Of a stretch of 64,000 bases of DNA, positions 200 through 49,736 are shown piece by piece; position 1 is the first letter of the stretch; each line of letters begins with the position of its first letter. The position numbers and the translations under genes are program-made. Under the pieces are notes generated by a model. That model had not been told where the DNA came from. It searched no databases and worked only from the letters and a program-made list of their open reading frames with translations. The stretch is from Reyranella soli (lineage in GTDB: Bacteria > Pseudomonadota > Alphaproteobacteria > Reyranellales > Reyranellaceae): the NCBI RefSeq assembly GCF_007992495.1, contig NZ_BKAJ01000075.1, positions 1 to 64,000 of the forward strand. Reading direction: 5' to 3'.

Positions 200-1372
200 T
201 CAGGCGCTCGTCGTGAACAGCTCGGCCAGCGTCCTCACCGCCTGCTCGGCCTCGGCCCGGTCGGGCGCCTCGTTGGTGTCCCCGTAGCCCTGCCGCTCAC
301 CACCGGCGAATGACTGCACGACCAGCCCGTCACGCCGCGGCACGGTCAGCACATGGCGGTAGACCAGGCCATAGCGCACCTCGGGCTGCGGGATCAGCCG
401 CGCGATCTGCCCGCGCACCGGCACCAGGGTTTCGTCCTTCCACAGCGCCCGCGCGCCGTAGCCCGTGCAGTTGATCACCACTCTCTTGCCCAGGGCGGCG
501 ATCTGCGAGGGTGATCGGAAGTCGGCCCGCCGGAACTGGCCGCCGGCGATGAAGAAGTCGTTCATCAAGGTGTGGCCATAGTCGGCGATGTTGAACACCA
601 TGATCTCGCCGCGCGCGACCGACGTCCCCTTGAACGGCGTCGCATCGGCCGGCACGGAGCGCCATCGCGGTGTCAGGTCGCGGATCGAACGCGCGTAGCT
701 GGCGAACGCCAGCGCCGGTTCGATCGCATTGCTGCTGGCTGCGTCAGTGCTCTGGGTGATGCGCGGTGTGCCGCCGGAAACGGCGTACTGGTCGATCCAT
801 TCCACCGGCGTGCCCGGCAGGCCGAGATAGTCGCGATGCCTCTTGAAGGAGGCGCGCGCCATCTCTTCCCACACGGCGGCGAAGCCGGGTGCTGCGGCAT
901 TGACCAGGGCAATGCGCGAATCGGGCGTCCATTCGCCGGTCGCCCGAGCCGACGTCGTCTCCGGCAATTGATCGCGGGCGTAGATGGTGACGCGCGCACC
1001 GGCGCGCTGCGCCAGGGTCGCCGAGGTGAGTCCGAGCGCGCCGCAGCCGATCACCGCCACCTCTGTGGGGCTCGCCTGCATGGCGAGCTGCACCGCCCGC
1101 GTGCTCGATCCCCAGGACAGCGACCAGCCGCTCCCGCCATGGCCGTAATTGTGCACCACCAGCACGTCGCCCAGCCGCTCGGTCTCCACGCGCGGCCCGG
1201 CTGGACGGAAGGGACGCAGGCAGACGGCGATATCGAAGATGCGGTCGGTGCGCGCACGGATGGGCGCCAGTGCTGGCGCGGGCTCGAAGGACGTTGTCGA
1301 GCAGCCTGCCAGCGCAGCGGCCAACGACGTCTGCATCAATCCACGGCGGCCTACGCGCCATCTATCGTCCAA
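200..1372 (-). CDS. Tat-exported FAD-dependent D-amino-acid-oxidase-like oxidoreductase, circularly permuted
   Basis: Flavoprotein of the D-amino-acid oxidase (DAO) superfamily, predicted to oxidise an amine or D-amino acid outside the cytoplasm. The N terminus has a twin-arginine motif (RRGLMQ, about residues 9-14) and a lipobox-like ALAGC, so it may be a Tat-exported lipoprotein. The usual DAO C-terminal signature (HNYGHGGSGWSLSWG, about 74-88) comes BEFORE the FAD Rossmann motif (VIGCGALGL, about 107-115). The protein ends in the segment that normally precedes that signature (VPRRDGLVVQSFAGG...). This is a circular permutation of the fold. I chose the TTG at 1372 because GGAGG lies 7 bases upstream; a longer reading from a TTG at 1432 has no ribosome site. 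It sits downstream of a LysR gene on the same strand. Substrate unknown. Confidence 0.8.
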   Translation of the reverse strand: MDDRWRVGRRGLMQTSLAAALAGCSTTSFEPAPALAPIRARTDRIFDIAVCLRPFRPAGPRVETERLGDVLVVHNYGHGGSGWSLSWGSSTRAVQLAMQASPTEVAVIGCGALGLTSATLAQRAGARVTIYARDQLPETTSARATGEWTPDSRIALVNAAAPGFAAVWEEMARASFKRHRDYLGLPGTPVEWIDQYAVSGGTPRITQSTDAASSNAIEPALAFASYARSIRDLTPRWRSVPADATPFKGTSVARGEIMVFNIADYGHTLMNDFFIAGGQFRRADFRSPSQIAALGKRVVINCTGYGARALWKDETLVPVRGQIARLIPQPEVRYGLVYRHVLTVPRRDGLVVQSFAGGERQGYGDTNEAPDRAEAEQAVRTLAELFTTSA

Positions 1373-1439
1373 CGCTGTACCTCCACTCCGCTCGACCTGC
1401 CCGAGATTGGCCTGCACCGGAATGCAGTTCAAATACGAT

Positions 1440-41647: not shown

Positions 41648-43003
41648 CTAATCGCTCGCAAGCGCCGTGCGCTGGCGACCCGCGGTGTGGCGGTTGACGT
41701 ACTCCGGCAGGCCGAGATTGCCACGCAGCGTGGTGCTCTCGTATTCGCTGCGGAAGCGGCCGCGCCGGCGCAGTTCGGGCACGACCAGCTCGACGAAATC
41801 CTCCGCGCCGTGCGGCAGGTGGGTCGGCGTGAGGTTGAAGCCGTCGGCCGCCTCCTCGTCGATCCACTGCTCCATCACGTCGGCGACGTCCTCGGCCGTG
41901 CCTTTCAGCAGGAGGCCGCCGCTGCCGGCCGACTTCTTCTGATAGAACTGGCGGATGGTGAGGTTCTCGCGCTGGGCGAGGTTCCACATGTTGTAGGCGA
42001 TGCTGCGCACCTTGGCGTTGACCGGTTCCGGCACCGGCCCGTCCAGCGGATGGCCGGAAAGATCGCCGAATGCATTGAACAGGCTGGCGAGACCGACCAG
42101 CGGATCGATCAGCTCCTGCAGCTGGTCGAACTTGGCCTGCGCCTCCGCCCGCGTGCGGCCGACGATGGTGGTGACGGCGGGCATCACCTTCAGGAGATCC
42201 GGTGCGCGGCCGTACTTGGCCATGCGCGCCTTCAAGCCGGCGTAGTAGGCCTTGGCGCCGGCGAGATCGACCTGGGCGGCGTAGACGACATCGGCATTGG
42301 CCGCGGCGATCTCCTGGCCCTGCTCGGCCGCGCCCGCCTGCACCAGGATCGGCCGTCCTTGCGGAGTCGGCGGCGCATTGAGCGGGCCGCGCACGGAGAA
42401 ATGCTTGCCGCGGTGATTGAGCACGTGGAGCTTGGCGGGGTCGTAGAACTGGCCCGACGCCTTGTCGTGGACGAAGGCGTCCGCTTCCCACGAATCCCAC
42501 AGGCCGGTGACGACGTCGACGAACTCCTTCGCGCGGTCGTAGCGCGTGTCGTAGTCGAGATGCGCGTCGCGGCTGAAGTTCCAGGCTTCCTGCTCCGACC
42601 ACGAGGTGACGATGTTCCAGCCCGCCCGGCCGCCGCTGATATTGTCGAGCGAGGCGAACTTGCGGGCGATGTGGAACGGCTCGTTGTAGGTGGTCGAGGC
42701 GGTCGAGACGAGCCCGATATGGCTGGTCGAGGCCGCCAGCGCCGACAACAGCGTCAGCGGCTCGAGCTCGGCATTGCGGTTGCTGCGCGCCAGCGATCCC
42801 GGCGGATTGTCGTCGGCGCGGATGCCGATGCCGTCGGCGAAGAACACCATGTCGAACTTGCCGCGCTCGGCGATGCGGGCGCTGTTGAGGAAATACTTGA
42901 AGTCGGTCGCGCCGCCGGGCGGCACCTCGGGATGACGCCAGGCGGCGTCGTGGTAGCCGAGGTAACGCATCGAGAGTCCGAGCTTCATTTGCGTCTTACG
43001 CAT
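41648..43003 (-). CDS. LLM-class flavin-dependent monooxygenase (NtaA/SnaA/DszA family)
   Basis: 451-residue luciferase-like monooxygenase. MKLGLSMRYLGYHDAAWRHP, FDMVFFADGIG, EPLTLLSALAASTSHIGLVSTASTTYNEPFHIARKFASLDNISGGRAGWNIVTS and GRPILVQAGAAEQGQE are the standard blocks. FMNH2 comes from a separate reductase, not found here. The family cleaves C-S or C-N bonds (nitrilotriacetate, dibenzothiophene sulfone). Start chosen at the ATG at 43003, which has AAGGAG 8 bases upstream overlapping the binding-protein stop. Last gene of the importer operon. Confidence 0.9.
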   Translation of the reverse strand: MRKTQMKLGLSMRYLGYHDAAWRHPEVPPGGATDFKYFLNSARIAERGKFDMVFFADGIGIRADDNPPGSLARSNRNAELEPLTLLSALAASTSHIGLVSTASTTYNEPFHIARKFASLDNISGGRAGWNIVTSWSEQEAWNFSRDAHLDYDTRYDRAKEFVDVVTGLWDSWEADAFVHDKASGQFYDPAKLHVLNHRGKHFSVRGPLNAPPTPQGRPILVQAGAAEQGQEIAAANADVVYAAQVDLAGAKAYYAGLKARMAKYGRAPDLLKVMPAVTTIVGRTRAEAQAKFDQLQELIDPLVGLASLFNAFGDLSGHPLDGPVPEPVNAKVRSIAYNMWNLAQRENLTIRQFYQKKSAGSGGLLLKGTAEDVADVMEQWIDEEAADGFNLTPTHLPHGAEDFVELVVPELRRRGRFRSEYESTTLRGNLGLPEYVNRHTAGRQRTALASD

Positions 43004-43016
43004 CGAACGCACTCCT

Positions 43017-44765
43017 TCAGTAAACGTAGCCGGCCTTTTCCATGTACTTGCGCGCCAGATCGAGGTCGTAGGCGATCGGCTTCAGGAGATCGTGGTCGTA
43101 TTCCGGCGCCGACCAGGCCATCGGCACGGTGCCGGGATTGCCGTAGCCGCCGGCGATTTCCTTGACGATCTGCTCGCGCGGCATGGCGTGGCTGATGGCC
43201 TGGCGGATGTAGGCGGCGGCTTCCGCCGCCCGCGACGGGTCGCTCTTGCCGAGCGGGGTCTCGATGCCCAGGCCGAACACCGGATGCTTGAGGTTGTAGC
43301 AAATGTGCTGCCACTTGTAGGAATCGAAGGTCAGGACCTTGCCCCACTTGGGATCGATCGTGCTGACGACGGGGCCGATGTCGTACATCGGGTCGTGCGC
43401 GTCGATCTCGCCGGCCTTCAGCGCGCTCAGCACCGAATCGGTGCCGTTGATGTTGACGACATAGAACGTCTTGACGTTGCCGGTATGCGGCTTCCAGTAG
43501 GCCTCGTTGCGCTTGAAGCCATAGGCCTTGCGTGCCGGGTCGAAGCCCATCGGGATCCACGGCCCGGTACCGACGGCGCCGCGGGCCGTGAAGCTCTTGC
43601 CATCCGAGGTCTTGACCGTGTAGCTGCCGAGCCAGGTGCTGGCGACGTGGCTGCGCAGTGCCTCGGGCTTGATGTCCTTGTAGGCGTGCGCCGGCATGAT
43701 GGCGAAGGCGCCCATCAGCGTGTTGAGGAAGTCGATACTGTAAGTTGGCAGGTCGACGGTGATCTCGTGCTTGCCGGTGACCTTGTAGGCGCTGGTGTCG
43801 CCGAAGACGCGGGCGCAGACCGCCTGCAGCTGCGAGCCGTACGCCTTGTTCATCATGGTGTCCCAGGTGAACTTCACGTCTTCCGCCGTGAACTCCTCGC
43901 CGGAATGCCACTTCACGCCCTGACGCAGCGTCACCACCCAATGCTTGCCGTCGGCGGACATGGTGTGGCCGGTGGCGAGCGCGGGAACGAGCGTCTTGTC
44001 TTCCCAGCTCTTGTATTCGTAGAGGCGGTTGTAGGCCGGGCCGAAGACGTTCGAATCGCTGTAGCCGATGGAGTACATCGGGATGAGCGAGCTCGGCGGC
44101 TGCCAGGAGGCGAAGGCCGCCGTGGCATCGGCCCCGGCGCCTTCGATCGTCCAGCGCTCGGGCTGCGGATAGAAGGTCGGCGTGTAGGTGGTGGCGTCGA
44201 AGCCCTTGAGCTTCGGGTTCACCGCGACCACGTCCTGCGGGTAGAACAGGATCGTCATCGGCTGGATGTCGTACCAGCGCTTCTCGAAGTCGTGGTAGGC
44301 CTTCAGCCGGTCGGCTTCGTTCAGGCTGCTGTCGACGGCGCGCAGCGAGCGGTCGATCTCCTTGTCATCGACGTAGTAGAAATTCTGGCCGTTGGGCGGC
44401 ATCTCGGTGCTGCCGAACAAGGCGTAGGGCGACGGCTTGATCGACGAATAAAGGTATCGCTCGAGATAGCAGTCCCAGCCGCCATCGACGTGGGTCTTGC
44501 CGTCGCCCTTCGCGCGCCGCGGCCCGATCACCGTGAACGGCGCGAAGCTCGACACCACGTCGATGCCGATGCGCGACATCTGCGCCGCCGCCAGCGTGCC
44601 CCACACCATGCGGGCCGGCTGGTTGTTGGGGATCATCATGTAGAGCTTGAAGAACGGCGTCGCTGCCCTGCCCGGCCCCGCCACCGCGGTGAGCGCGCTG
44701 GCGAGCGAGGCCTGCAGGACGGTGCGACGGCTCGGCGTGACGTTCGAGGAAGACCTGGTGCTCAT
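43017..44765 (-). CDS. Family 5 (dipeptide/opine) ABC substrate-binding protein, circularly permuted
   Basis: 582-residue exported protein with an RR-containing signal (PSRRTVLQASLASALTAVAG). It is built from ordinary family 5 segments in swapped order. Residues 40-208 (LYMMIPNNQPARMVW, then IPPNG-like MPPNGQNFYYVDDKEIDRSL and PERWTI) are what normally forms the C-terminal part. Residues 225-582 begin with the usual N-terminal block (NRLYEYKSWEDKTLVPALA, TLRQGVKWHSGEEFTAEDV) and end at ARKYMEKAGYVY, where a normal protein would go on into the segment now at the N terminus. A contiguous fold is expected. First-hand sequence evidence; ligand unknown, context suggests an opine-like or sulfur-containing compound. 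Confidence 0.85.
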   Translation of the reverse strand: MSTRSSSNVTPSRRTVLQASLASALTAVAGPGRAATPFFKLYMMIPNNQPARMVWGTLAAAQMSRIGIDVVSSFAPFTVIGPRRAKGDGKTHVDGGWDCYLERYLYSSIKPSPYALFGSTEMPPNGQNFYYVDDKEIDRSLRAVDSSLNEADRLKAYHDFEKRWYDIQPMTILFYPQDVVAVNPKLKGFDATTYTPTFYPQPERWTIEGAGADATAAFASWQPPSSLIPMYSIGYSDSNVFGPAYNRLYEYKSWEDKTLVPALATGHTMSADGKHWVVTLRQGVKWHSGEEFTAEDVKFTWDTMMNKAYGSQLQAVCARVFGDTSAYKVTGKHEITVDLPTYSIDFLNTLMGAFAIMPAHAYKDIKPEALRSHVASTWLGSYTVKTSDGKSFTARGAVGTGPWIPMGFDPARKAYGFKRNEAYWKPHTGNVKTFYVVNINGTDSVLSALKAGEIDAHDPMYDIGPVVSTIDPKWGKVLTFDSYKWQHICYNLKHPVFGLGIETPLGKSDPSRAAEAAAYIRQAISHAMPREQIVKEIAGGYGNPGTVPMAWSAPEYDHDLLKPIAYDLDLARKYMEKAGYVY

Positions 44766-44782: not shown

Positions 44783-45775
44783 TCATGCAGGGTTGTGGCA
44801 GGCGGCCTGGGTATTCGGTCCCATCGGCTGCAGCACAGGGACCTGCTCGCGACAGATCGGCAGGGCGGCGGCACAGCGGGGATGGAAGGGGCATCCGGCG
44901 GGGCGGTTCATGGCGCTCGGCACCTCGCCGCGCAGATGCACGCGCTGGTCGACGGCGCCGGGACTCGGCACCGGAATGGCGCTGATGAGGGCCGCGGTAT
45001 AGTGATGGCGCGGCCGCGCGAAGATCTCGTCGACGGCGCCGATCTCGACGATGCGGCCGAGATACATCACCGCCACATGGGTCGAGATGAAGCGCACCGA
45101 GCTCAGGTCGTGCGAGATGTACAGGTAGGCGACGCTGAGCTGGTCCTGCAGGGCCGCCAGCAGGTTCAGGATCTGCGACCGCACGGAGATGTCGAGCGAC
45201 GACACCGGCTCGTCCAGCAGCACCACGTCCGGCTCCACCGCGAGCGCGCGGGCGATGCCGACGCGCTGGCGCTGGCCACCACTGAATTCGTGCGGGTAGC
45301 GCACGCCGTTGCGCGGCTCGAGCCCCACCCTCTCCAGCAGGGTGGCGATGCGGTCGCCCCAGTCGCGCTGGTGCTGCGGCGCGTGCACCCGAAGCGGCTC
45401 GCGCAGCGCCTCGTTGATCGTCCAGCGCGGATTGAGCGAGAGGTACGGATCCTGGAACACGTACTGCATGCGCCGGCGCACAGCGAGCATGGCGGCGCGG
45501 TCGGTTCCCGCCAGGACCGGCCGGACATCCTGCCCATCGAGGCGGACTTCGCCGGCGTCGGCGCGCACGAGATCGAGAATGCTGCGGGCGGTCGTCGTCT
45601 TGCCGCAGCCGCTCTCGCCCACCAGGCCGAGCGTCTGGCCCGCCTGCAGCACGAAGGAGACGTCGTCCACCGCGCGCACGGTGCCGGTCTGCTGCCGCGC
45701 GAACAGGCGCCTGAGGCCGCGTCTGACAGCACGGTAATGCTTGCGCAGTCCACGAACCTCGAGCAGCGCCGTCAT
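44783..45775 (-). CDS. ABC importer ATPase, DppF/OppF type
   Basis: 330-residue ATPase. Walker A GESGCGKTT, Q-loop VFQDPYLSLNPRWTI, signature FSGGQRQR, Walker B VVLLDEPVSSLD, switch YISHDLS, and the C-terminal oligopeptide extension with cysteines (CPFHPRCAAALPICREQVPVL) that in DppF/OppF can bind an iron-sulfur cluster. Start ATG 45775 overlaps the stop of the DppD-type gene (ATGA). The binding-protein gene follows after 17 bases. Confidence 0.94.
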   Translation of the reverse strand: MTALLEVRGLRKHYRAVRRGLRRLFARQQTGTVRAVDDVSFVLQAGQTLGLVGESGCGKTTTARSILDLVRADAGEVRLDGQDVRPVLAGTDRAAMLAVRRRMQYVFQDPYLSLNPRWTINEALREPLRVHAPQHQRDWGDRIATLLERVGLEPRNGVRYPHEFSGGQRQRVGIARALAVEPDVVLLDEPVSSLDISVRSQILNLLAALQDQLSVAYLYISHDLSSVRFISTHVAVMYLGRIVEIGAVDEIFARPRHHYTAALISAIPVPSPGAVDQRVHLRGEVPSAMNRPAGCPFHPRCAAALPICREQVPVLQPMGPNTQAACHNPA

Positions 45776-46821
45776 GGCGTTTCCTCGCCCGGCGAGCCGC
45801 GGCGCAGGCAGCTGACACTGTGGCCCGGCGCTACGAGATGCTCGCGCGGCATGGTGCGGCGGCATTCGGGTGCGGCTTCCGGGCAGCGGTCGTGGAAGCG
45901 GCAGCCCGGCGGCGCATGCAGCAGGTCCGGCGGCCGCCCGGCGATGCTCGGCAGCACGCGCCGCGCGCCGCTGTAGCTGTGGTCGATGCGCGGCACGCTC
46001 TCCAGCAGGGCCCGCGTGTAGGGATGCTGGGGCGCGTTGAAGATCGTGTCGGCGTCTGCGGTCTCGCAGACGCGGCCGGCGTACATCACCGTGATACGGT
46101 CGGCCATGCGCGCGACCACGCCCATGTCGTGCGTCACCAGCACCATCGACATCGAGAGCCGCTGGCGCAGATCGGCCAGCAGGTCGAGGATCTGCGCCTG
46201 GATGGTGACGTCGAGCGCCGTCGTCGGCTCGTCCGCCAGCAGCAGTGCCGGCTCGCACAGGAGCGCACGGGCGATGCCGACGCGCTGCTTCATGCCGCCG
46301 CTGAGCTCATGCGGATACTGCCGCAGCCGCGCTGCCGGATCGCTGATGCCCACCAGCGTCAGGAGCTCGGCCGCGCGATCGAGCGCGGCCTGGCGCGACA
46401 CGCCGGTGTGCCAGCGCAGGATCTCTGTCAGCTGCTGGCCGACGCTGAGGATGGGATTGAGCGAGGTCGCCGGGTTCTGGAAGATCATCGCCATCCGCCG
46501 TCCACGGATCTCTGCCAGCCGCTTGTCGGGCTGCAGCAGCAGGTTCTCGCCCTCGAACACGACGCGGCCGGCGACGATGCGCGCCGGCGGCGGCGCCAGC
46601 CGCAGCAGCGTCAGGCTGGCGACGGTCTTGCCGCTGCCGGATTCACCGACGATACCCAGCGTCTGCCCGGTGCCGACCTGGAAATCGACGCCGTCGACCG
46701 CCCGCACCACGCCGTCGCGCGTGTGGAAGTGCACCTTCAGGCCTTCGACCGCCAGCAGCGGCCCAGGCTGGCCCGCCTTCGCGGGCGACGGGTCAGGCGC
46801 GGACACGGGGATTGAACGCAT
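45772..46821 (-). CDS. ABC importer ATPase, DppD/OppD type
   Basis: 349-residue ATPase. Walker A GESGSGKTV, Q-loop IFQNPATSLNPILSV, signature LSGGMKQR, Walker B LLLADEPTTALD, switch VTHDMGV, with the cysteine-bearing oligopeptide extension CRFHDRCPEAAPECRR. Start at the ATG of MRSIPVSAP (46821) overlaps the permease gene by 29 bases; a GTG at 46806 is an alternative. Works as a heterodimer with the DppF-type subunit. Confidence 0.94.
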   Translation of the reverse strand: MRSIPVSAPDPSPAKAGQPGPLLAVEGLKVHFHTRDGVVRAVDGVDFQVGTGQTLGIVGESGSGKTVASLTLLRLAPPPARIVAGRVVFEGENLLLQPDKRLAEIRGRRMAMIFQNPATSLNPILSVGQQLTEILRWHTGVSRQAALDRAAELLTLVGISDPAARLRQYPHELSGGMKQRVGIARALLCEPALLLADEPTTALDVTIQAQILDLLADLRQRLSMSMVLVTHDMGVVARMADRITVMYAGRVCETADADTIFNAPQHPYTRALLESVPRIDHSYSGARRVLPSIAGRPPDLLHAPPGCRFHDRCPEAAPECRRTMPREHLVAPGHSVSCLRRGSPGEETP

Positions 46822-47737
46822 CGGTCAGGCCATCGGCCAGGAGGTTGAAACCAAGGACGGTCACGAAGATCGCGGTGCCGGGCGCCAGGCAGGCCCAAGG
46901 CGCCACCTTCAGGGACTGGTAGTTGAAGAACAGGATCTGGCCCCAGGAGATCGACTTCGGATCGCCGAAGCCCAGGAAGCTCACCATCGCCTCGGCCAGG
47001 ATGGCGCCGCCGATCCCCAGCGCCACCAGCACGATCAACGGCGGCAGCGCGTTGGGCAGGATGTGGCGGAACAGGATCTCGCGCGGCGTGGTGCCGATGC
47101 AGCGCGCCGCCTCGACGAACTCGGCGTGGCGCAGCCGCAGGAATTCGGCGCGCGTCATGCGCGCGATCTGGGGCCACGAAAACAGGCCCAGCAGCAGGAT
47201 GATGGTCATCAGGTTGAAGTTGGGAATGCGCTCCAGCGGCGTTCCCACCACGATGATGCCGAACAGCCGCACCACCGCCAGGATCACCACGAACACCGGC
47301 ACGACCATGAAGAACTCGGCGCCGCGCATCAGCGCCTCGTCGGTGAAGCCGCCGACGTAGCCGGCGACGCCGCCGACCAGCACTCCAATGAGCGAGGCGA
47401 TCAGCATCGCGCCCAGCCCGACCGCCAGCGCCGTCGGGGCGCCGTAGATGGTGCGGCTGAGCACGTCGTAGCCGTTGCGGTCGGTGCCGAGCCAGTTGCG
47501 CGCGCTGGGAGCGGCGTTGGAGGCGCCGCGCAGCATGGCGGCGTTATCGTTGGGATCGTAGGGCGCGACGAACGGCCCGATGATCGCTGTCAGCACCACC
47601 AGGGTCACGAGCACCAGGCCGATCATGCCGGCGCGGTTGCGACGAAAGCGGTGCCAGGCTTGCCGCCAGACACCAGCGGGCGGGCGCTGCAGCGTGGCGA
47701 GGACGCTGACCGGGGAGGAGGCGAAGTCGGCGTCCAT
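46793..47737 (-). CDS. ABC importer permease, DppC type
   Basis: 314-residue inner-membrane protein. The N-terminal FRRNRAGMIGLVLVTLVVLTAIIGPFVAPYDPND is the usual OppC_N helix; the coupling loop is ARMTRAEFLRLRHAEFVEAARCIGTTPREILFRHILPN. About six helices. The start ATG 47737 follows the DppB stop by one base gap. One half of the permease pair. Confidence 0.94.
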   Translation of the reverse strand: MDADFASSPVSVLATLQRPPAGVWRQAWHRFRRNRAGMIGLVLVTLVVLTAIIGPFVAPYDPNDNAAMLRGASNAAPSARNWLGTDRNGYDVLSRTIYGAPTALAVGLGAMLIASLIGVLVGGVAGYVGGFTDEALMRGAEFFMVVPVFVVILAVVRLFGIIVVGTPLERIPNFNLMTIILLLGLFSWPQIARMTRAEFLRLRHAEFVEAARCIGTTPREILFRHILPNALPPLIVLVALGIGGAILAEAMVSFLGFGDPKSISWGQILFFNYQSLKVAPWACLAPGTAIFVTVLGFNLLADGLTDAFNPRVRA

Positions 47738-47738
47738 G

Positions 47739-48707
47739 TCAGCCCAACCGGATGCGCGGATCGATCACGACATAGGCGATGTCGGTGAGCAGGGTGGCCA
47801 CCACGAGCATGACCGTGATGACCATGGTCACTCCCATGATCACGGGATAATCCAGCTGGTGGATCGCGGTGATGTAGAGCGCGCCGAGGCCGGGCCAGGT
47901 GAACACCGTCTCGGTCACCGGGGCGGTGCCGAGCATCAGCCCGAACAGCGTGCCGAGATAGGTCAGCTGCGGGATGAAGGCGTTGCGCAGCGCATGGTGC
48001 AGGACCACGCGGCGGGCCGGCAGGCCGGACGCCCAGGCGGCGGTGATGTAGTCCTGGCGCAAGACGTCGACCAGCGAGGACCGCATCAGGAGCGTGAGCG
48101 TGGCGGTGTTGAACACCGTCAGCATCGCCACTGGCAGCACCATGTGCCACAGCCCGTCGATGACCATGCTGCCCATCATCAGGTTGCGCGTGGAATAGGC
48201 GCCGTAGGAGGGCAGCACGCCCAGCCAGTAGGAAAAGATCAGGATCAGCACGATGCCGACCAGGAAGCCGGGCAGCGAATGGCCGAGCATGGCCGACGAG
48301 ACGATGCTGAAATCCGCCCAGCCGTGCTGCCGCATCGCCGCGATCACGCCCGCAGCCGTCGCGATCAGGGTCGACAGCAGGATCGCGGGCAGCTGGAGCT
48401 TCAGCGTTTCCAGCCCGTACACTTCGAGCAGCTCGCCGACCGGCTGGTTGTAGATGATGCTGGTGCCGAAATCGAAGTGCACGATCGACCACAGCCATGC
48501 GCCGTAGCGGTCGATGAAGTTGCCGTCGAGGCCGTAGTACCGGCTGAGGGTGGCGATCATCTCCTCGGATACGCCGGGCGTTTCCGACAGCAGGATCTGG
48601 ATCGGGTTGCCGATGGCGTTGATCAGGGCGAAGAGAATGAAGCTGACGCCGAGGATGAGGGCGGCGGAGAAGGCCAGGCGGCGCAGGAGGAAGCGCAACG
48701 CGCCCAA
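47739..48707 (-). CDS. ABC importer permease, DppB type
   Basis: 322-residue inner-membrane protein starting FLLRRLAFSAALILGVSFILFALI, the typical DppB start; coupling loop RSSLVDVLRQDYITAAWASGLPARRVVLHHALRNAFIPQLTYLG. Start codon is TTG at 48707, the only reasonable option at the conserved N terminus. First gene of the five-gene importer plus monooxygenase operon and divergent from the LysR gene, 120 bases away. Confidence 0.92.
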   Translation of the reverse strand: MGALRFLLRRLAFSAALILGVSFILFALINAIGNPIQILLSETPGVSEEMIATLSRYYGLDGNFIDRYGAWLWSIVHFDFGTSIIYNQPVGELLEVYGLETLKLQLPAILLSTLIATAAGVIAAMRQHGWADFSIVSSAMLGHSLPGFLVGIVLILIFSYWLGVLPSYGAYSTRNLMMGSMVIDGLWHMVLPVAMLTVFNTATLTLLMRSSLVDVLRQDYITAAWASGLPARRVVLHHALRNAFIPQLTYLGTLFGLMLGTAPVTETVFTWPGLGALYITAIHQLDYPVIMGVTMVITVMLVVATLLTDIAYVVIDPRIRLG

Positions 48708-48827: not shown

Positions 48828-49736
48828 GTGAAAATACGCCAGCTAGAGGCTTTTCGGGCGGTCATGCTCTGCCAGACCGTCACGCTCGCCAGCGAGATGC
48901 TGCATATCTCGCAGCCGGCGACGACGCGGCTTCTCGCTGACCTCGAGAGGTCGCTCCGGTTCAAGCTGTTCGATCGGGTCAAGGGCCGGCTTTATCCGAC
49001 AGTGGAAGCGCGTGCGCTCTATGAGGAGGTCCAGCGCTCGCTGGTCGGCGTCGATCGCATCTCCCGGGCCGCGGACGAGATCAGGGATCTACGCCGCGGC
49101 ACCTTGCTGATCGCGGCGGCGCCGGCGATCGCCCTCTCCTTCCTGCCGCACGCGATCGCGGATTACCTGAAGACGCGGCCCGAAGCGCATGTGTCGCTCG
49201 CCATGCATTCGTCCCGCACTGTCGTGGACATGGTGCTGGGCCAGCGCTGCGACGTCGGCTTCTCGATGCTGTCGATCAACCACGCCGGCGCGCATGGCGA
49301 GCGCCTGATCTCGACGCGGATGGTCTGTGCCTTGCCGGCGGGACATCGGCTCTGCGCGCGCGATACGGTCAAGCCGACCGACCTTGCCGGAGAGCGTTTC
49401 GTCGCCCACCCGCACAGCGTCGAGTCGCGCCTGCGGATCGACGCGTTGTTTGCCGCTCATGGCGTCGAGCTGAAACTGCAGATGGAAAGCCAAGTGTCCC
49501 ACGCGGTCTGCTCGTTCGTCGAGGCGGGAGCCGGTGTCTCCTTGATCGATGCGATCAGCGCCTGGGGCTATCGGGGAACGGGTGTCGTCTTCAAGCCTTT
49601 CGAACCATTGCTCACCGCCGACTTCGCCTTGCTGACGCCCACCCAACGGCCGACGCCGTTGTTGCTGAAGTCATTCGTCTCTCACGTGCGGGAGTTCGCT
49701 GTGGCGGAGCTCGGCCCGAGTGTCGTAGCCTCCTGA
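48828..49736 (+). CDS. LysR-family regulator, OccR/NocR-like
   Basis: 302 residues; HTH in MKIRQLEAFRAVMLCQTVTLASEMLHISQPATTRLLADLERSLRFKLFDR, followed by the effector domain. The KIRQLEAFRAVML opening resembles the regulators OccR and NocR of octopine and nopaline catabolism. It is divergent from the dipeptide/opine-type importer and lies near the opine-dehydrogenase family gene, so it likely senses the imported compound. Start codon is GTG at 48828; an AGGATG-type ribosome site is weak. A palindromic site lies just before it. Confidence 0.88.
   Translation: MKIRQLEAFRAVMLCQTVTLASEMLHISQPATTRLLADLERSLRFKLFDRVKGRLYPTVEARALYEEVQRSLVGVDRISRAADEIRDLRRGTLLIAAAPAIALSFLPHAIADYLKTRPEAHVSLAMHSSRTVVDMVLGQRCDVGFSMLSINHAGAHGERLISTRMVCALPAGHRLCARDTVKPTDLAGERFVAHPHSVESRLRIDALFAAHGVELKLQMESQVSHAVCSFVEAGAGVSLIDAISAWGYRGTGVVFKPFEPLLTADFALLTPTQRPTPLLLKSFVSHVREFAVAELGPSVVAS

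Follow-up and report, generated by a model that had tools for sequence, protein, structure and literature searches.

Cluster C substrate-binding proteins (AppA, DppA, OppA, NikA and NikZ; PF00496) are the closest described relatives of P0001, the protein analysed here, which is homologous to them across both of its sequence blocks. Their chain order is the standard one, whereas that of P0001 is permuted. A works-like model for the operon around P0001 is found in Chelativorans sp. BNC1, whose EDTA-binding receptor EppA works together with EppBCD and with EmoA, an FMN monooxygenase (PMC7312458). The likeness lies in the combination of a cluster C receptor, an ABC importer and an FMN-dependent C-N-bond monooxygenase; EppA has the standard order, unlike P0001 (PMC7312458). 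Like the EppA-EmoA aminopolycarboxylate pathway, the operon around P0001 has an NtaA/DmoA-family gene beside the importer; that its monooxygenase acts on aminopolycarboxylates would be a guess.

Circularly permuted binding proteins have been engineered as biosensors, and these show that the fold can survive moved chain ends. Such proteins are laboratory-made, whereas the P0001 family is natural. A search of the open-licence literature for a natural permuted family-5 receptor found no description of one and returned engineered permutations and unrelated papers only. We consider it highly probable (about 0.88) that P0001 serves an Opp/Dpp-type ABC importer as a working receptor, with a chain circularly permuted from the usual family-5 order. 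The group to which it belongs is apparently old, working and undescribed.

Block order of the receptor

The window (the whole stretch of DNA analysed, 64,000 nucleotides of Reyranella soli) encodes P0001 with the following parts:

43017..44765 (-): permuted family-5 (SBP_bac_5) substrate-binding protein P0001, 582 aa, ATG to TGA
44664..44765 (-): probable signal peptide of the twin-arginine type (SRRTVLQ), residues 1-34, with the cleavage site placed by eye
44187..44657 (-): first block, residues 37-193, equivalent to the C-terminal part of standard proteins (AppA about 359-504)
44118..44186 (-): joint, residues 194-216, including ERWTIEGAG, leading from the old C-terminus to the old N-terminus with a net -1 residue
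43026..44117 (-): second block, residues 217-580, ending in KAGY, equivalent to the N-terminal two thirds of standard proteins (AppA about 23-344)

The reading frame is open, with no internal stop. Pfam SBP_bac_5 recognises P0001 at 184.7 bits (curated cut-off 32.4), aligning residues 258-580 with profile positions 1-278 of 368; the match stops at the chain end, and the missing end of the profile is found at the N-terminus. Using phmmer with P0001 against AppA (1xoc), residues 234-365 aligned with 38-167, 519-580 with 282-344 and 99-190 with 414-503. A 15-sequence profile of the family aligned residues 213-578 with AppA 23-344 (i-E 5.5e-49) and 36-189 with 359-504 (i-E 4.1e-16); on the DppA chain 8z1z, 204-577 aligned with 21-367 (1.2e-37) and 47-188 with 386-520 (8.4e-10). 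Both blocks are thus significant singly and stand in swapped order on AppA and DppA. P0001 departs from the standard I-IIa-III-IIb order and reads IIIb-IIb-I-IIa-IIIa (domain names after PMC7312458). By block order, as read from the sequence, P0001 is circularly permuted.

The first-pass annotation had described the protein in these terms, with a chain end at KAGYVY exactly where the displaced segment would normally begin. As a description of block order this was right: the family-profile matches to AppA and DppA and the doubled profile described below place the last third first. The exact cut did not stand. The chain ends two residues past AGY, and about 14 AppA residues at the cut (345-358) have no match in the profile alignment.

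EppA is divided into domains I (27-256), IIa (257-302), III (303-530) and IIb (531-563) in PMC7312458. By analogy with this layout, and from its position two thirds along the chain, we infer that the cut lies inside domain III. The original termini, where domain I starts and domain IIb stops, would then be fused and the new ends would fall within domain III, so that domain III would be assembled from both chain ends and domain I and the hinge would become internal. The fold and its venus-flytrap closing would presumably be retained.

Structure prediction did not add to the question of order. AlphaFold, run with 7 aligned close sequences, gave poor models of the whole chain (mean pLDDT 47.1, pTM 0.44) and the mature chain (44.1, 0.41); neither showed standard topology, and both are too poor for topology to be judged. 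A Foldseek search with the first of them gave 157 matches at E <=0.001, with family-5 proteins among the best 50. Most of these 50 covered about 210-260 aligned columns at TM about 0.2-0.3, chiefly in the well-modelled lobe and with no bearing on order, and a few reached 374-397 columns with an rmsd near 16. In sequence searches of solved structures, AppA was the best match of the permuted profile (E 1.2e-66; best 60 of 110 solved sequences). None of the solved chains crossed the joint in its best stretch, among the best 60 of 110 and the best 60 of 108, where a permuted chain would be expected to rank high.

The permuted group

Eight further genes (L032-L039), 55-89% identical to P0001, have the same permuted order. 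The closest, L032 (89%), comes from a second genome of the same genus; other hosts of near relatives are Paracraurococcus ruber, two Acetobacteraceae metagenome-assembled genomes, Salipiger marinus and Microvirga vignae, and two near relatives lie on complete plasmids of Salipiger sp. CCB-MM3 and Neorhizobium sp. NCHU2750. The dN/dS of P0001 is 0.15 against L032 and 0.32 against L033; the gene is under purifying selection.

More distant members were found in Alphaproteobacteria and Haloarchaea. Six aligned proteins (L040-L045) are collinear with P0001 from end to end and have the same cut at only 21-23% identity, and therefore the permutation is not local. Haloarchaeal genera with this cut, among those read, are Haladaptatus, Natrinema, Halobaculum, Halalkalicoccus, Natrononativus, Halorussus, Natrialba and Haloarcula. 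A tblastn search of plasmid records with P0001 found 12 in which a single place covers >=80% of the query, while the distant member L041 gave 51 and the haloarchaeal L044 gave 19; the plasmid hosts read, all permuted at the same point, include Neorhizobium, Nitratireductor (two genes), Microvirga ossetica, Ketogulonicigenium, Roseomonas and Maritalea. When 99 substrate-binding protein ORFs were classed, 33 were permuted (32 distinct genes, L028 being a copy of L052 that was dropped as a duplicate row), 59 were standard and 7, mostly partial, were left unclassed. One partial match, L097, has the standard order. The survey of relatives that the first-pass annotation proposed thus revealed an old, spread subfamily rather than a local curiosity.

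Within the genomes surveyed the permuted group is sparse. Near relatives of P0001 were found in 2 of 75 genomes of the window's family at E 1e-60, and among 386 genomes of its class P0001 at E 1e-30 found the window genome only. A search with the A1 profile (E 1e-60) was positive in 6 of 191 genomes of the class, with 7 places that start at profile 3-19 and extend to 579-580, and in one of 249 genomes of the phylum, again the window genome. These counts of permuted genes are lower bounds because few candidates were scored per genome. Scanned viral contigs gave no relative.

Few transport proteins are as common as family-5 receptors, and the window genome has a very large set, with 92 PF00496 (SBP_bac_5) loci in 9.8 Mb. 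With permuted and standard receptors in one genome, one can ask directly whether chain connection matters for folding, lobe closure and importer docking; the permutation may alter docking, as the first-pass annotation suggested. It also exposes a practical fault, in that SBP_bac_5 models are cut short on permuted proteins: the matches to P0001 (C75:43023) and L052 (C59:8326) end at profile positions 279 and 287 of 368, and all others end at >=326. Ten named records, nine of them selected because they carry a permuted gene, gave 26 PF00496 matches, of which 10 stop at 285-298. Permuted receptors are therefore filed as ordinary or partial substrate-binding proteins, and their public annotation reads 'ABC transporter substrate-binding protein'.

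L052 (G000:C59:8326-9948, minus strand) is the window genome's second permuted family-5 receptor and belongs to another branch of the permuted group. It adjoins an OppB-type permease gene and, upstream, an NtaA-type monooxygenase gene whose product is 49% identical to that of the window. A separate contig of the same genome, C176, carries a pair of adjacent family-5 genes in opposite orientation (L022, L068 and L082), whose open frames are 835 and 826 codons long; in one of them the receptor part starts at residue 269 of 781, after a long N-terminal part.

Block order was also measured against a standard profile of 486 positions, built from 25 standard paralogues of the window genome, and a doubled version consisting of two copies end to end. 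The single profile gave P0001 two blocks of 31.3 and 107.6 bits. On the doubled profile, residues 18-377 matched positions 310-652 in one stretch across the joint at 486, with 148.7 bits, and the remainder (393-457 and 520-580) matched more weakly, in two pieces that could belong to either copy. The match was a single unbroken one in each of L040-L045 and L028, spanning about 470-490 positions, nearly a full cycle (L040: 345-813). One continuous match to a doubled reference had been expected at the outset; the distant members provide it over nearly the whole cycle and P0001 over 18-377 only. Full-sequence scores rose from 185.3 to 190.9 bits for P0001 and from 255.5 to 266.5 for L040; the gain is modest because the single profile already adds up both blocks. 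Among the standard proteins used to build the profile, 24 of 25 kept to one copy, some starting up to 6 positions early, and L030 followed a hybrid path (5-971) without gain, scoring 486.4 bits either way. In the larger set, two of the 59 standard ORFs were flagged across the joint, L072 (453-953, a slightly early start) and L102 (two overlapping pieces); both crossings are taken as copy ambiguity.

The joint has no added linker. Its net linker ranges from -4 to +3 residues with a median of -1 in the 33 permuted ORFs, the block limits being unsure in L094 and L095. In all but one of the 33 the last block stops at profile 325-338; the exception is L094, at 303. The AGY motif is invariant in all 15 aligned sequences (P0001, its near relatives and L040-L045), and the near relatives, like P0001, end two residues beyond it; haloarchaeal members have a tail there that can reach about 40 residues. 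The W-T of the joint was considered as a mark of single origin and rejected: it is invariant in the first 15 sequences but lost in others, for example L050, L051 and L088.

Origin of the permuted order

For the trees, permuted sequences were rotated to the standard order, giving 31 permuted and 59 standard rows (90); L095, with only 296 columns filled, was left out. In the first tree two changes of order were needed, since L002-L005, which are standard paralogues, separated the 9 rows of the window's clade from the remaining 22 permuted rows. Taken at face value, this tree would mean that the permutation arose more than once, with the window's clade standing apart from the other permuted proteins, and the blast identity of only 19-25% between the two sets fits such a history. 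However, the joins of L002-L005 were flagged as a meeting of long branches, and a tree in which the 31 permuted rows were kept as one group was better by 25 log units (p-AU 0.726). When L002-L005 were removed, the permuted rows formed one side of a branch with support 91; removal of the columns near the joint and cut gave the permuted clade support of 86. We therefore regard more than one origin as unlikely, though still to be reckoned with, and a single origin is favoured by these sequence comparisons rather than proven because no support for it reaches 95.

The permuted receptor would likely have arisen by tandem duplication followed by in-frame fusion and trimming; no intermediates were seen. 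The same order could also come about by shuffling: a standard protein would have lost its C-terminal third and acquired, at its N-terminus, the corresponding segment of a different family-5 protein. Sequence alone cannot fully separate this from duplication of one gene, and the blocks of the window's clade match the standard profile unequally (31 versus 108 bits). The joint, however, has no added linker, the cut is the same in all classed members except L094, in which the last block ends earlier, and the distant members cover a near-complete cycle. On this evidence shuffling is improbable.

We lean, with some reserve, towards permutation as one ancient event that would have founded the whole receptor subfamily, which may later have spread between Haloarchaea and Alphaproteobacteria. 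In the first tree the Halalkalicoccus protein L090 groups with three alphaproteobacterial proteins with support 95, a placement that weakly suggests transfer between the domains; the signal is weak because L090, L091, L093 and L094 have unusual composition. Haloarchaeal permuted sequences have a Cys after the signal. As the N-terminus would lie in domain III, we propose that lipid-anchored members are held by the lobe opposite to that of their standard cousins. Such tethering, which we include in the same cautiously preferred scheme, would turn round the presentation of the receptor to an OppBC channel of otherwise ordinary kind.

Gene neighbourhood, importer and ligand

The genes around P0001 are as follows:

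44783..45775 (-): OppF-type ATPase, Pfam ABC_tran and oligo_HPY
45772..46821 (-): OppD-type ATPase, Pfam ABC_tran and oligo_HPY
46793..47737 (-): OppC-type permease, Pfam BPD_transp_1 and OppC_N
47739..48707 (-): OppB-type permease, Pfam BPD_transp_1, relatives matching from residue 20-22
41648..43003 (-): NtaA/DmoA-family FMN-dependent (LLM) monooxygenase, directly downstream of P0001, NCBIfam TIGR03860
40455..41507 (+): octopine/nopaline-dehydrogenase-like protein, convergent neighbour, Pfam Octopine_DH 1.8e-35, recurring near permuted genes
48828..49736 (+): LysR-type regulator, divergent from the operon, recurring near permuted genes

The OppB-, OppC-, OppD- and OppF-type genes thus follow one another from 48707 to 44783, ahead of P0001 and then the monooxygenase, which matches TIGR03860 at 1.8e-164 (547.5 bits, cut-off 279.7). 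Judged by its relatives, the true start of OppB is probably a little downstream of the one at the 48707 end. A count of Shine-Dalgarno patterns was uninformative.

Permease and ATPase genes adjoin the permuted gene in all nine near relatives, the window included; they are divergent at L035 and reordered at L039. The same holds for 13 of 14 annotated distant loci (L041, L043-L045, L088-L096 and L098). At the exception, L098 (Haladaptatus pallidirubidus), the neighbours are arylsulfotransferase-family and PAP2 phosphatase genes. Identities of receptor and OppB to those of the window covary (r 0.97, 8 loci). P0001 might alternatively be a transport receptor no longer, having become a sensor or the binding protein of another process, and L098, permuted and without importer genes alongside, could be read in that sense; against the importer genes at the other loci and the divergence of receptor and permease in step, we judge this very improbable. 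A sequencing or assembly artefact, in which the order would come from a misjoined contig, was named by the first-pass annotation as what would undo its claim and can be dismissed: no support for it was found in the window genome assembly of 409 contigs, whereas the order recurs in independent genomes (the second genome of the genus, isolates), the frame is open with low dN/dS, and misassembly is excluded because eight further genes keep the order, two of them on complete plasmids.

As a working receptor, P0001 would hand its ligand to the adjacent OppBCDF-type importer. An NtaA-type gene adjoins the permuted gene in six of the nine near relatives (window, L032, L033, L036, L038 and L039) and an opine-dehydrogenase-like gene is present in the locus of five (window, L032, L033, L035 and L037). 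One or both are found in eight of the nine; in the ninth, L034, the sequence ends 369 bases past the gene. In the near relatives the imported compound may thus be processed by the NtaA-type FMN monooxygenase, the opine-dehydrogenase-like enzyme or both. By analogy with EppA and EmoA, an opine-like or aminopolycarboxylate-like ligand could be suggested for the window's clade, as a tentative guess. In peptide receptors an acidic residue, Asp in DppA and OppA, holds the peptide N-terminus. In the alignment, read by eye, this site would fall on Ser107 in P0001 and on Ser or Asn in all nine near relatives; the aligned DppA chain carries Arg there, so that the placement of the site is tentative.

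Six distant loci (L041, L088, L089, L090, L093 and L094) also contain M28/M20 peptidase, hydantoinase/oxoprolinase, creatininase or TldD genes. The ligands therefore differ between branches, and a role in uptake of peptides or cyclic amides is possible for this one.

The first-pass annotation had drawn attention to export signals in the window. P0001 does carry one, judged by eye from an N-terminal RR motif and a hydrophobic stretch. As a special feature it did not survive comparison: among permuted proteins the twin-arginine pattern occurs in 7 of the 9 near relatives and in 13 of the other 23, but it is also present in 22 of 44 standard paralogues of the window genome and 9 of 15 other standard proteins, which rules it out as a mark of the permuted group. 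A permuted DAO-like protein had been reported in the same window, and this was borne out by block order on solved D-amino-acid oxidases, the C-terminal segment coming first. The protein (200-1432, minus strand, 410 aa) matches Pfam DAO over residues 125-406 (profile 2-297 of 353), and on the D-amino-acid oxidase 7ct4 its residues 121-347 align with chain positions 22-243 and residues 67-120 with 322-375.
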